Source of the DNA: Shinella zoogloeoides
GTDB taxonomy: Bacteria; Pseudomonadota; Alphaproteobacteria; Rhizobiales; Rhizobiaceae
Direction of reading: 5' to 3'
NCBI RefSeq assembly: GCF_030733845.1
Contig: NZ_CP132311.1
Span: forward strand, 1,243,501-1,307,500
DNA length: 64,000 bases
Below the pieces are notes generated by a model. That model made no database searches. It was not told where the DNA came from and saw nothing but the letters and a program-made list of their open reading frames with translations. Numbering within the stretch: the stretch's first letter is position 1; every line of letters begins with the position of its first letter. Shown one piece after another: positions 46,925 to 51,257 of the stretch. The position numbers and the translations under genes are program-made.

Positions 46925-46942
46925 CCCGAAGTGACCGAAGCC

Positions 46943-48424
46943 ATGACCGACCTGACCCGCCTGACCATTGCCGAAGCCCGCGAAAAGCTCGGCGCCAAGG
47001 AGATCACCGCCGTCGAGCTGACGGACGCCTATCTCGGCGCGATCGAAGCGGCCAACCCGGCGATCAACGCCTATGTCACCGTGACGCCGGACAAGGCGCG
47101 CGAGATGGCGAAGGCCTCCGACGGCCGCATCGCCGCCGGCAAGGCCGGTGCGCTGGAAGGCATCCCGCTCGGCATTAAGGACCTCTTCGCCACCGAAGGC
47201 GTGCACACGCAGGCCTGCAGCCACATCCTCGACGGCTTCCAGCCGAAATACGAATCGACCGTCACGCAGAACCTGTGGAGCGACGGCGCCGTCATGCTCG
47301 GCAAGCTGAACATGGACGAGTTCGCCATGGGCTCCTCCAACGAGTCGTCCTACTACGGCCCGGTCAAGAACCCGTGGCGCGCGAATGGCTCCAACGCCGA
47401 CCTCGTGCCCGGCGGCTCGTCCGGCGGCTCGGCCGCGGCGGTTGCCGCTTACCTGTGCGCCGGTGCGACGGCGACGGATACCGGCGGCTCGATCCGCCAG
47501 CCTGCCGCCTTCACCGGCACCGTCGGAATCAAGCCGACCTATGGCCGCTGCTCGCGCTGGGGCATCGTCGCCTTCGCCTCCTCGCTCGACCAGGCCGGCC
47601 CCATCGCCCGCGACGTGCGCGATGCGGCGATCCTCCTGAAATCCATGGCCAGCGTCGACGCCAGGGACACGACCTCCGTCGATCTGCCGGTGCCGGATTA
47701 CGAAGCCTCGCTCGGCCAGTCGCTGAAGGGCATGCGCATCGGCATTCCGCGCGAATACCGTCTCGACGGCATGCCGGAGGAAATCGAGGCGCTCTGGCAG
47801 AAGGGCATCGCCTGGCTGAAGGATGCCGGCGCCGAGATCATCGACATCTCCCTGCCGCACACGAAATACGCCCTGCCGGCCTATTACATCGTGGCGCCCG
47901 CCGAAGCCTCCTCGAACCTCGCCCGCTACGACGGCGTGCGCTACGGCCTGCGCGTCGACGGCAAGGACATCGTCGACATGTACGAGAAGACCCGCGCTGC
48001 CGGCTTCGGCACGGAGGTCAAGCGCCGCATCATGATCGGCACCTATGTGCTCTCGGCCGGCTACTACGACGCCTATTACCTTCAGGCCCAGAAGGTGCGC
48101 ACGCTCATCAAGCGCGATTTCGAGCTGGCCTTCAATGCCGGCGTCGATGCGATCCTGACCCCCGCCACGCCGTCCTCCGCCTTCGGCATCGCCGACGAGG
48201 ACCTGGCCTCCGATCCGGTGAAGATGTACCTCCAGGACATCTTCACGGTCACGGTCAACATGGCGGGCCTGCCGGGCCTCTCCGTGCCGGCCGGTCTCGA
48301 CCACAAGGGCCTGCCGCTCGGCCTCCAGCTCATCGGCAAGCCGTTCGAAGAGGAAGTCCTCTTCAAGACGGCGCATGTCATCGAGCAGGCCGCCGGCCGC
48401 TTCTCGCCCGCCAAGTGGTGGTAA
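46943..48424 (+). CDS. gatA: Asp-tRNA(Asn)/Glu-tRNA(Gln) amidotransferase subunit A
   Basis: A 493-residue amidase that releases ammonia from glutamine. The Ser-cis-Ser-Lys triad is visible: Lys in [10 protein letters not shown] (near residue 79), cis-Ser in [15 protein letters not shown] and nucleophile Ser in [14 protein letters not shown] 46943 gives the usual [13 protein letters not shown] start; a GTG at 46931 would add four residues. After this gene the gat series is interrupted by about 5 kb of accessory DNA. Confidence 0.95.
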
Positions 48425-48468
48425 GGGGCGCACTTTAGCCCCGAACAAACGCGTGCGCCAAAACGTGT

Positions 48469-48493
48469 CGTAACGGCAACACTTGCCGTTACG
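48469..48493. other. 11-bp perfect palindrome downstream of gatA
   Basis: CGTAACGGCAA (48469-48479) and TTGCCGTTACG (48483-48493) are perfect inverted repeats with a CAC spacer. No T-run follows directly (a TTTTT occurs 18 bases later), so it could be a weak terminator of gatA or an operator for the tRNA-like cluster. It does not have sigma-54 spacing. Confidence 0.55.
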
Positions 48494-48662
48494 GGAGCCT
48501 GCGCCTGCGTCTTTTTGCTTGATCCTCCCGAAAGTTGAGAATAAACGCGCCCTCCCGGTCGTTCAGCCGGTGCGGATGTCAACGGATGGAGTTTTCCGCT
48601 CCTCCCGCGCGGGGCGGCCCTGCCGTCGTCGTGTACGGATGCCGCGCCGAGAAGACCGGTTT

Positions 48663-48736
48663 GCGGACCTAGCTCAGTGGTAGAGCGCCGGACATTCCTC
48701 CGGAGGTCGCGGGTTCGATTCCCGTTGTCTGCTCCA
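48663..48736 (+). ncRNA. tRNA-like element 1 (tRNA-Gly-like body, abnormal anticodon loop)
   Basis: A 74-base tRNA-shaped sequence. Acceptor GCGGACC pairs with TGTCTGC with one C-T mismatch and one G-U, then T and CCA (48733-48736). D-arm GCTC/GAGC and T-arm GCGGG-TTCGATT-CCCGT are normal. The anticodon arm is not: CCGGA/TCCGG encloses only six bases (CATTCC), and there is no U at the usual position 33, so it should not decode. Acceptor and U73 resemble tRNA-Gly. It heads a tandem cluster leading to a Band-7 gene. Confidence 0.72.
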
Positions 48737-48803
48737 TTGGATAGCTCAGTGGTAGAGCATCAGACCATTACTCTGACTGTGGAAGGTTCGAATCCTTCTC
48801 CAA
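48737..48803 (+). ncRNA. tRNA-like element 2 (short acceptor stem)
   Basis: It begins at the base after the CCA of element 1. TTGGA/TCCAA gives a five-pair acceptor instead of seven. D-arm GCTC/GAGC, anticodon arm TCAGA-CCATTAC-TCTGA and T-arm GAAGG-TTCGAAT-CCTTC are perfectly paired. The loop has C at position 33 instead of U, unlike normal decoding tRNAs. The shortened acceptor would not be a good substrate for ordinary aminoacylation. Perfect pairing of all three arms argues against a decaying pseudogene. Confidence 0.7.
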
Positions 48804-48807
48804 AAGT

Positions 48808-48824
48808 GCTGACTCGAAATCAGC
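48808..48824 (+). ncRNA. isolated anticodon arm, tRNA-Ser(CGA)-like
   Basis: GCTGA-CTCGAAA-TCAGC: five paired bases, a seven-base loop and five paired bases, exactly the size of an anticodon arm. The loop is identical to that of bacterial tRNA-Ser with anticodon CGA. There is no D-arm, T-arm or acceptor around it. It follows element 2 after four bases. Confidence 0.65.
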
Positions 48825-48825
48825 G

Positions 48826-48846
48826 ACAGCCTTCCAAGCTGTTTTC
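48826..48846 (+). ncRNA. isolated anticodon arm, tRNA-Gly(UCC)-like, with T-run
   Basis: ACAGC-CTTCCAA-GCTGT (48826-48842): again five pairs around seven bases. The core CAGC-CTTCCAA-GCTG is the same as the anticodon arm of E. coli tRNA-Gly(UCC). It is followed by TTT, so the arm could also work as the intrinsic terminator of the tRNA-like transcript. It follows the Ser-like arm after one base. Confidence 0.65.
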
Positions 48847-49177
48847 AATCCGGTCCGGGGACCGGACTGCGGACGGCAGACCGGGGTGGGGCCGAAAGGC
48901 CCTTTCCCGGAAAGCCCGATGCCTGACGTTTGCGGTCCGGTTCTCGGTGACGATCAAGCCGCCTCCCGGCCAGCAAGGGACCGCACGGTTCCCGCGCCCG
49001 CCCGGACGCTGCGCGATCCTCTCCCGAAAACCCGCCGCCGATGGCCGTCAGCCGGTTCCCGGATCATCTATCGAATACCCCGCCCGCAGGTTCCCCGGGC
49101 GATCAGGGTTCCCCAGGGAACGGACAACGAAAGGACGATCGGTTCATGACGTAGCGTATGACCGAAGGAGTAGAAGA
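48847..49177 (+). other. GC-rich structured leader between tRNA-like cluster and slipin gene
   Basis: No gene is seen. Several hairpins are visible: TCCGGTCC/GGACCGGA at 48849-48866; CCGG-A-CTGC...GCAG-A-CCGG near 48862-48883; and GGGCC-GAAA-GGCCC followed by TTTC at 48889-48905, which is terminator-like. If transcription runs from the tRNA-like cluster into slipin, these could attenuate it. The slipin ribosome-binding site GAAGGAG lies at the end. Confidence 0.45.
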
Positions 49178-50323
49178 ATGACGATGTTTCTCGATATGAT
49201 TTTGGGGCGCACGCGCGTCCTCGTGAAGGCCAACGAGCGCGTGCTCGCGCTCTACAGGGGAGAAGTCCTCGGCATTTTCGGCGCGGGCGAACACAGCCTG
49301 CCGAACCGCCGCGGCATGCTCGAACTGGAGCGTCACGACGTGAACCGGGCGGCCTTCGTCTCGGCCTACGAGAAGCCGTTGTTCGATACGCTTCCGGAGG
49401 TCGCACGCCGCGAACTGGTGGTCTTCCGCACGAACGCGCGTGAAATCTCGGTCGTCGAACGCGACGGCGAGCTTCACACGGTGCTCGCGCCGAACCAGAA
49501 GCTCGTGGTGTGGAACGCTGCCGGTCCGTGGGCCGAGACGCGCATCGACCTGACTGAGCGGCTCGACGTCGATCCGGAGCTGATGCGCCGGCTGACGCGG
49601 GCACGCCGGACGGAACTCGTCACGGCCTTCATGGTCAATGACGGGCAGGTCGGCCTGCTTTTCGTCGACGGAACGCACCAGCGCATGCTGGAGCCGGGCC
49701 TGCACGCCTTCTGGAACGTCGGCAAGACGATCCAGGTGCGCGTGGTGGACCTGAAGCGCCAGTCGCTCGACGTGACCGGCCAGGAACTGCTCACCCGCGA
49801 CAAGGTCACGATCCGGGTGAACATTTCGGCCGAATACCGCGTCGTCGATCCGCTGAGGGCCGTCTCGGAGGTCAAGGACTTCGCCGATGCGCTCTACCGG
49901 GCGCTACAGTTCGCCTTCCGCCAGACGCTCGGCACGCTGACGCTCGACCAGATCCTTGAACGCAAGGTGACGGTCAACGCGGAAGCCGCCGAGAAGGTGC
50001 GGGCCGACATGGCGGCCATCGGGGTCGAGGTCTCGGCCATCGAGCTCAAGGACGTGATCCTGCCGGGCGAGATGCGCGATATCCTCAACCAGGTCGTCGC
50101 GGCGGAAAAGCAGGCCGAGGCCAACGTCATCCGTCGCCGCGAGGAAACGAACGCCACCCGTTCGCTCCTCAACACGGCCAGGGTGATGGCGGAAAATCCG
50201 GTCATGCTGCGGCTGAAGGAGCTTGAAGCTCTCGAAGCCATCGCCGGGAAGGTCGAGCGCCTGACCATCCACAACGGGACGGCGGGCCTGATGAACGACC
50301 TCGTCCAGCTCCGCGACAAGTAG
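49178..50323 (+). CDS. slipin / SPFH (Band-7) domain protein
   Basis: A 381-residue protein with the Band-7/SPFH fold. It has the central LTRDKVTIRVNISAEYRVVDP strand region (split here over family positions near 215-235), VKDFADALYRALQFAFRQTL and the ELKDVILPGEMRDILNQVVAAEKQAEANVIRRREE coiled-coil segment at about 290-330. Unlike stomatins it lacks an obvious N-terminal membrane hairpin, so it may be soluble. SPFH proteins of this type occur in bacterial RNA-repair gene sets with RtcB and a tRNA-like RNA. Here the tRNA-like cluster is upstream but no rtcB or rtcR is nearby. ATG 49178 follows GAAGGAG. Confidence 0.85.
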   Translation: MTMFLDMILGRTRVLVKANERVLALYRGEVLGIFGAGEHSLPNRRGMLELERHDVNRAAFVSAYEKPLFDTLPEVARRELVVFRTNAREISVVERDGELHTVLAPNQKLVVWNAAGPWAETRIDLTERLDVDPELMRRLTRARRTELVTAFMVNDGQVGLLFVDGTHQRMLEPGLHAFWNVGKTIQVRVVDLKRQSLDVTGQELLTRDKVTIRVNISAEYRVVDPLRAVSEVKDFADALYRALQFAFRQTLGTLTLDQILERKVTVNAEAAEKVRADMAAIGVEVSAIELKDVILPGEMRDILNQVVAAEKQAEANVIRRREETNATRSLLNTARVMAENPVMLRLKELEALEAIAGKVERLTIHNGTAGLMNDLVQLRDK

Positions 50324-50327
50324 GGGA

Positions 50328-50360
50328 CCGCCCGGCCGAAAGGCCGGGCGATTCTCTTTT
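50328..50360 (+). terminator. terminator of the slipin gene
   Basis: GCCCGGCC (50330-50337) pairs with GGCCGGGC (50342-50349) around a GAAA tetraloop, followed by GATTCTCTTTT. It lies directly after the slipin stop. Confidence 0.8.
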
Positions 50361-50452
50361 GCGCCTTCCCCATCATCGCCGTGGATGGCCGATTTCCCTC
50401 TCTCGCCAATCGCCCCGCGCGATGCTTTCATAGGGGTGGAGAGAACCGCCCC

Positions 50453-50965
50453 ATGATCACCGTCCGCAATGCCCGTCAGGAGGATGTCAACGCCCTTGTC
50501 GAGATCGGCGTCAGGGCGTGGGAGCAGGCCGTCGTCGGCGTCGCCGACCTCCAGGTGCGGCGCGACTATGCGCGCAACGCCTTCCAGCAGTTCCTCGTCA
50601 GTCATTGGCTGCGCGTGACGGTCGCCGAGTTCGACGGCGCGCTCGCCGGCTGGGCGTCCCGCGAGGCGCTGGACGACGAGATCAGCGATCTGTGGGTCGA
50701 GCCGCAGCACCAGAAGATGGGCCTCGGCGCGGCCCTGCTCGCCGCCATGGAGGCGGAGATCGTCGCGGCCGGTTTCGAGGCGGCGCGGCTTCAGACCCAT
50801 GCCCGCAATGTCGCCGCCGTGGCTTTCTTCCAGAAGCATGGCTATGCGGTGAACTGGCTTTCCGTCGATTATTCGGCCCGCCTCGACCGGGATGTGGAAT
50901 CGGTCGGCCTGCGCCGGCAGCTCGTGGCGGACGAGCCGTCCGGCTACGGACCGGGCGGGTTTTGA
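50453..50965 (+). CDS. GNAT family N-acetyltransferase next to yjhX
   Basis: A 170-residue acetyltransferase with WVEPQHQKMGLGAALLAAME as the acetyl-CoA loop and HARNVAAVAFFQKHGY as the final GNAT motif. It converges on a YjhX-type gene 34 bases away. In E. coli, YjhX (TopAI) is neutralised by YjhQ, which is also a GNAT-type protein, so a toxin-antitoxin relationship is possible; here, however, the genes are convergent and not in one operon. Start ATG 50453. Confidence 0.82.
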   Translation: MITVRNARQEDVNALVEIGVRAWEQAVVGVADLQVRRDYARNAFQQFLVSHWLRVTVAEFDGALAGWASREALDDEISDLWVEPQHQKMGLGAALLAAMEAEIVAAGFEAARLQTHARNVAAVAFFQKHGYAVNWLSVDYSARLDRDVESVGLRRQLVADEPSGYGPGGF

Positions 50966-50999
50966 GGGGAGGCGCGTGCTCGCCGCGCCTCCCGCTCCG

Positions 51000-51257
51000 T
51001 CACTGGTTGTCCTGCTGCGATCGCACCAGTTCGAGCCCGCGCTGGGTGATGCGGTAGGGCCTGCCACCGGACGAGGCGATGTAGCGCCGGCGCTTCAGCT
51101 TGCGGAAGAGCTCGATGTCCAAGCCGCCCGCCCGCCAGCCCTCCCGGGTGACGCAGGCGACGGTGACGATCTTCCTGGTTTCGTCTTTTTCGATTTCGAT
51201 CCTGCCGCCCTGGGCGAGCAGGTGGAGTATGCGCTGTTCGGCGCGGGAAATGTCCAT
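51000..51257 (-). CDS. YjhX / UPF0386 family protein (TopAI-like)
   Basis: An 85-residue protein matching UPF0386 over its whole length: MDISRAEQRILHLLAQGG at the start, a central VTREGWRAGGLDIELFRKLKRR and the final SSGGRPYRITQRGLELVR. E. coli YjhX was reported to inhibit topoisomerase I (TopA), hence TopAI. Activity here is inferred from family only. Upstream is GAACG-CAAAAAAA-CGTTC, a palindrome that may hold the promoter or operator. Confidence 0.85.
   Translation of the reverse strand: MDISRAEQRILHLLAQGGRIEIEKDETRKIVTVACVTREGWRAGGLDIELFRKLKRRRYIASSGGRPYRITQRGLELVRSQQDNQ

Follow-up and report, generated by a model that had tools for sequence, protein, structure and literature searches.

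RNA-repair systems in which SPFH/Band-7 modules occur with a novel tRNA-like molecule were reportedly described by Burroughs and Aravind in 2016. Here, we analyzed a 64,000-nucleotide (nt) stretch of the Shinella zoogloeoides genome (contig NZ_CP132311.1, positions 1,243,501 to 1,307,500 of the forward strand; hereafter, "the window," whose own numbering is used below), in which a conserved structured RNA of ~510 nt (~48553-49065), containing a pair of tRNA bodies that cannot decode and a pair of isolated anticodon arms, precedes an SPFH/Band-7 ("slipin") gene and may act as a decoy for anticodon nucleases. The locus resembles the system of 2016 in that its SPFH gene (Band_7, 2.8e-30) adjoins a tRNA-like RNA gene and in that relatives of its slipin stand beside RtcB and RtcR; it differs in that the window's genome has no RtcB (PF01139) and no RtcR (PF06956) match. 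A form lacking RtcB and having the large scaffold, the variable triplets, and the bare anticodon arms did not surface in the open-licence literature searched.

Three other systems were compared with the locus. The Y RNA YrlA of rsr-yrlBA-rtcBA operons is a tRNA mimic in an RNA-repair operon, and in the excerpted text of Hughes et al. a tRNA-like RNA of an rtc operon is suggested to possibly inhibit an anticodon nuclease (PMC7790460). The window RNA reaches 26.1 bits with the YrlA model (RF02553), below the cut-off of 69, and, unlike YrlA, has whole tRNA bodies, bare anticodon arms, and an SPFH partner gene. In the comparison with the eukaryotic vault (major vault protein and vault RNA), the predicted slipin model gave matches over the SPFH region and a helix, and in one of ten vault rows over the N-terminal part as well. 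The differences are the length of slipin (381 residues versus ~800) and the tRNA-like RNA; the system is known here from genes and a predicted model. The pseudo-tRNA tRNAOther of Bacillus cereus is likewise a tRNA-like RNA that serves outside translation; set against the window RNA by description, it differs in flanking a genomic island, as stated in excerpts of its report (PMC3399842). The open-licence literature searched yielded no variable anticodon display.

tRNA-like elements in a conserved, covarying RNA

The RNA-containing stretch is flanked by an open reading frame (ORF; 46931-48424, the putative gatA of the original prediction) on one side and by the slipin gene (49178-50323) on the other, with a two-codon mini-ORF between the RNA and slipin; the RNA, its leader elements, and slipin are all on the + strand. 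The original prediction, which covered about one-third of the conserved RNA, described two tRNA-shaped bodies joined at a CCA end and unable to decode, followed by two 17-nt anticodon arms with Ser(CGA) and Gly(UCC) loops, and this anatomy was recovered at 48663-48842. ARAGORN calls + strand elements at 48663-48736 (unassignable, with a 6-nt loop) and 48734-48807 (Asn ATT), and the Rfam tRNA model scores them at 53.0 and 50.2 bits, respectively (cut-off 29). In body 1 (48663-48736), the anticodon stem 48688-48692/48699-48703 encloses the 6-nt loop 48693-48698, the seventh acceptor pair is mismatched, and the encoded CCA (48734-48736) overlaps the start of body 2 at 48735. Body 2 (48735-48807) has a 5-bp acceptor, TTGGA/TCCAA (48737-48741/48799-48803), and the loop CCATTAC, with C33. 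A 7-bp acceptor combined with a 7-nt loop carrying U33 is found in neither body: because of the 6-nt loop of body 1 and the 5-bp acceptor and C33 of body 2, neither is a functional tRNA. The first isolated arm (48808-48824) consists of the stem GCTGA/TCAGC and the loop CTCGAAA; the second (48826-48842), of the stem ACAGC/GCTGT and the loop CTTCCAA. The same two 7-nt loops occur in tRNA-Ser(CGA) and tRNA-Gly(TCC), respectively, of the window's genome. In two relatives (L150, which is the same locus as L063, and L077), GAAA replaces the anticodon loop of body 1.

Conserved blocks extend from ~48518 to ~49065 in two alignments, one of 22 sequences and one of 61, the effective sequence number of the latter being 32.6. 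Mutual information in the 61 sequences revealed covarying pairs in the 5′ domain (48553-48655, ends approximate; pairs 48588-48602, 48590-48600, 48608-48633, 48610-48631, and 48612-48630), in both bodies, in the second isolated arm (pair 48829-48839), and in the long helix of the 3′ domain (48850-49065, 3′ end approximate; pairs 48925-49045 to 48983-48988). Among the best 100 pairs, 35 are at least 75% complementary, compared to 10% of all pairs; several lone pairs are probably noise. For the two cloverleaves (38 pairs in 28 of 43 prepared stretches), 96.2% of cells are paired versus 89.0% in 500 shuffles, 18 pairs are changed on both sides versus 7.8, and 64 cells are doubly changed versus 14.0; none of the 500 shuffles reached the cloverleaf values. 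The D stem of body 2 is invariant, and its acceptor is the weak helix, being 86.2% paired with zero double changes. Apart from tRNA, no Rfam 15 family reaches its cut-off in window positions 47000-51000, and in the leaders of nine scanned relatives' loci, too, only tRNA does so.

A lack of compensatory stem changes in relatives had been named as an outcome that would speak against the original prediction; such changes are present. The compensatory changes, together with hairpin loops in excess of shuffled sequences (see below), exclude decay of the RNA as well as chance, in agreement with the earlier view that the perfect stems argue against decay; the body-2 anticodon stems are, moreover, invariant in the Mesorhizobium group. 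An origin as decaying tRNA genes or as an array of phage tRNAs would account for non-decoding bodies and for the weak matches to phage tRNA pairs, but not for the covariation or for the presence of the same module across families, and we regard this explanation as extremely improbable. A phage or plasmid array was also looked for directly and rejected: matches were at the tRNA level only, with no phage or plasmid record covering 80% of the query, and viral contigs contained no slipin relative.

Linkage of the RNA to slipin and to RNA-repair genes

The analysis went beyond the original prediction in delimiting the larger RNA, in linking it to slipin across neighborhoods, and in finding relatives next to RtcB and RtcR. 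Of 21 genomes of the genus, 10, counting the window's own, contain close copies of a 221-base query (E no higher than 1e-48). At 1e-12, matches were obtained in 18 of 394 sampled genomes of the family and 13 of 297 of the order (own genome in each), and the distribution is therefore patchy. The RNA and the slipin gene travel together: slipin is present at 27 of the 28 distinct loci from the family and order searches, and the only locus without it (L055) matched body 1 alone. At all 20 loci fetched at 10 to 15 kb, the start of slipin lies 438 to 587 nt past that of body 1, with both on one strand, and the pair is found in several different gene neighborhoods. In a reverse search, 80 of 336 slipin relatives were kept; when one without upstream sequence (L129) was excluded, ARAGORN called at least one tRNA-like element upstream of slipin in 77 of 79. 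Of the two misses, L144 has two Rfam tRNA matches, and L155 was read through the arm finder alone. A third conserved gene was considered and rejected: by eye, the genes common to three loci resemble FabF-type synthases and a dehydrogenase, and the module was therefore taken to be RNA plus slipin. In Mesorhizobium ciceri biserrulae WSM1271 (L151, 6001-7138), the slipin frame stops 36 residues after the start of the match, and both tRNA-like bodies are still called. Downstream of slipin in L070 (9907-10026), there is a match to the Rhizobiales small RNA Atu_C8.

When the slipin alignment was searched against 398 genomes across the phylum, 23 matched at 1e-50, including 14 from other classes (9e-87 to 4e-110). 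In all 14, an RtcB gene lies no more than 4 kb from slipin and in the same orientation. In 12 of them, it is directly downstream within 1 kb; it is 0.6 kb upstream in G1147, and 3.8 kb upstream, with a second match downstream, in G1162. RtcR is on the slipin contig in 8 of the 14, in six cases divergent and within ~730 nt of slipin. A tRNA-like element called by ARAGORN precedes slipin in 10 of the 14 RtcB-linked genomes, and L220 and L221 hold further tRNA calls. An isolated anticodon-like arm passing a strict rule was found in 11 of 20 leaders (5 of 13 from other classes and 6 of 7 from the window's class), and sigma-54-like sites are located 523 to 567 nt before slipin in 5 of the 20. In one RtcB-linked relative (L241), three consecutive tRNA-like elements precede slipin. 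Related associations are found in print: the Pseudomonas aeruginosa SPFH protein PaFlo8 is encoded in an rtc locus (PMC13086221), and an Anabaena slipin and RtcB share one gene table in a passage that deals with regulation by TrcR (PMC10272220).

Fast-changing triplets in anticodon-like loops

Changes were counted along a slipin tree covering 52 genomes of the Mesorhizobium group. None occurred at the ten anticodon-stem positions of body 2, while loop positions 32 to 38 changed 12, 6, 18, 17, 8, 6, and 5 times. Fourfold sites of slipin (n = 114) changed 4.0 times on average (99th percentile 16, maximum 22), so that positions 34 and 35 are equalled or surpassed by ~1 of the 114. A 7-nt body-2 loop is present in 59 of 61 non-redundant sequences, with 21 different triplets; U33 is found in 47 and A37 in 53 of the 59, and G37 accompanies G36 (Fisher p = 0.0013). 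Anticodon arms were called by automatic rules, and some body-2 rows that are misread or uncertain (L156, L053, and L077) were retained. Triplets equal to anticodons of the window's genome were found in 99 of 108 YYNNNRH loops compared to 86.1 under position permutation, and in 43 of 51 distinct loops compared to 36.8 (P 0.004), where the host set comprised 40 anticodons, two of which (GAT and TGC) were assumed rather than found. Body-2 triplets taken separately also favor real anticodons (distinct loops, P 0.005).

The isolated arms were assessed by scanning 60 non-redundant upstream regions after body 2 for hairpins of at least four Watson-Crick pairs, with 100 dinucleotide shuffles as the null; L021 yielded no arms and is absent from the 60 RNAs. 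The regions contain 89 hairpins (shuffle mean 31.6, maximum 45), 60 of which have 7-nt loops (mean 5.4, maximum 12). YUNNNRH loops account for 51 of the 89 (mean 0.25, maximum 2), and 19 loops have exactly the sequence of a tRNA loop from the window's genome, for which 39 such loops were compared (mean 0.03, maximum 1). One RNA has no hairpin after body 2, 31 have one, 26 have two, and 2 have three; by the strict rule, 42 of the 60 have an anticodon-like isolated loop (33 with one and 9 with two). U33 is present in 54 of the 60 7-nt loops. Stems include CAGC/GCTG, CACC/GGTG, and TGGC/GCCA, and the loops include those of Gly UCC, Ile GAU, Pro UGG, Arg CCU, Asp GUC, Tyr GUA, and Ser UGA. In the Mesorhizobium group, the second isolated arm has U33 in 46 of 46 sequences, while positions 34 to 36 changed 9, 12, and 9 times. 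The first isolated arm is present in only 2 of 11 compared rows, the window and a genome of the same genus (G009), where its loop, CTCAAAA, is that of Leu(CAA) and differs by one base from the Ser CGA loop of the window. The set of tRNA mimics that the original prediction had proposed is thus seen in relatives as hypervariable body-2 triplets on fixed stems and as isolated arms, including those in the RtcB-linked leaders; the use as baits or as a damage sensor suggested in that prediction is an inference.

Neutral drift of the loops in a structural RNA, with the anticodon likeness inherited from ancestral tRNAs, would agree with the many loop sequences tolerated and with loops that are off pattern. 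Real anticodons are, moreover, not significantly favored among distinct isolated loops alone (23 of 27 versus 21.4, P 0.28), which weighs against a bait function as well. However, position 33 of the second isolated arm is fixed while 34 to 36 vary, positions 34 and 35 of body 2 outpace nearly all fourfold sites, and body-2 triplets are biased toward real anticodons. We therefore consider neutral drift improbable.

Candidate functions of the RNA

Anticodon loops are the targets of colicins E5 and D, PrrC, and VapC, and anticodon nucleases are common weapons in phage defense and bacterial rivalry. A decoy for such enzymes fits our results best because the loops stay anticodon-like, change identity fast, and are adjoined by repair genes in relatives; as judged from sequence, we give about even chances to the RNA being a decoy for anticodon nucleases that is kept by an SPFH assembly. 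The locus would make a structured RNA in which body 2 presents one imitation anticodon arm and bare hairpins usually present one or two more, with body 1 perhaps serving as a scaffold. The transcribed RNA would be bound by slipin, cleaved in its loops by tRNA-cutting toxins or defense enzymes, and so protective. Together with the RNA, the SPFH protein may form an oligomer resembling stomatin or the vault, in which the decoy would be kept or positioned. Once cut, decoys could be re-sealed by RtcB in the relatives from other classes, where it belongs to the same gene cluster; no RtcB adjoins slipin in the rhizobial branch.

Several observations weigh against a decoy. In the excerpts of Hughes et al., the tRNA-like RNA is not itself cut by the nuclease (PMC7790460). 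RtcB is on the slipin contig in none of the 29 same-class carriers, some of whose assemblies are fragmented; an RtcB-family match is located elsewhere in 11 of the 29 and is missing from 18, including the window's genome, and RtcR is found in 2, on other contigs. Eighteen of the 60 RNAs lack any isolated arm passing the strict rule, and the body-2 loop of the window itself departs from the pattern (C33, A34). Recombination could inflate the change counts. Among 7-nt loops of control regions, the YUNNNRH form occurs in 5 of 45 in the 3′ domain (one host loop) and in 18 of 36 in the 5′ domain (no host loop); this form alone is therefore weaker evidence than exact host-loop matches. A tendency to avoid the same anticodon twice per RNA did not reach significance (0 of 38, with 1.7 expected; P 0.14). 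Finally, body 1 loops are 4 to 7 nt long (4 to 6 nt in 39 of 56), and body 1 itself does not look like bait, since only 2 of its 56 loops have an anticodon-like form and none equals a host tRNA loop.

Cis-regulation would be just as compatible with the location of the RNA in a leader that contains a mini-ORF. The main rival to the decoy is a cis-acting damage sensor, in which a cut loop would refold or trim the slipin mRNA leader and switch slipin translation through the mini-ORF hairpin. AAAGGA and the mini-ORF ATG ACG TAG (49146-49154) occupy 49130-49154, a possible hairpin read by eye (TCGGT/ACCGA, 49139-49143/49161-49165) encloses the mini-ORF, and the conserved Shine-Dalgarno motif of slipin, AGGAG, follows at 49166-49170. 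Of 61 sequences, 51 have a mini-ORF of this kind (start-codon-stop, with a Shine-Dalgarno-like motif) before slipin, compared to 2.2% under mononucleotide shuffling, and its second codon in relatives is most frequently ACG or ACT. In addition, the RNA is invariably 5′ of slipin on the same strand at the 20 loci, and no terminator-like site was found in 48420-49260, hence none between the RNA and slipin in the window. The sensor, however, requires an additional cause, such as varying nucleases, for the turnover of triplets, and we consider it rather unlikely; sensor and decoy could be combined. Less probable still is a role of the RNA in assembling or guiding a particle of the vault or stomatin type, in which the RNA loops would bind tRNA partners (modifying enzymes, synthetases, or broken tRNAs) instead of nucleases.

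A promoter-like block at 48518-48545 (CTTG, 48518-48521; TAAA, 48542-48545), conserved in both alignments, may serve as the promoter; a scan of 48420-49260 with the Escherichia coli sigma-70 consensus gave no promoter. The assignment of the 381-residue slipin rests on the Band_7 match, on alignment, and on model/fold matches. After slipin, a perfect GC-rich inverted repeat (50329-50350) followed by a T-rich stretch is probably its terminator; Rfam lists it weakly, below cut-off, as CRISPR-DR9.

Returning to the decoy, its fullest form is a bacterial vault-like ribonucleoprotein that carries lineage-specific, fast-diversifying anticodon-loop baits for toxins that cut tRNAs; the baits would be renewable in genomes with RtcB, and loop identity would reflect the nucleases that a lineage has met. 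We put this forward as a tentative possibility. If true, it would amount to RNA-based immunity through a library of anticodon baits. An RNA that is linked to an SPFH protein and shows several anticodon loops, whose changes outpace those at almost every silent site of the partner gene, would be a testable host answer to anticodon nucleases. It would also hint at what SPFH proteins do in RNA-repair gene clusters, and the nucleases that each lineage meets might be predicted from its loop identities.
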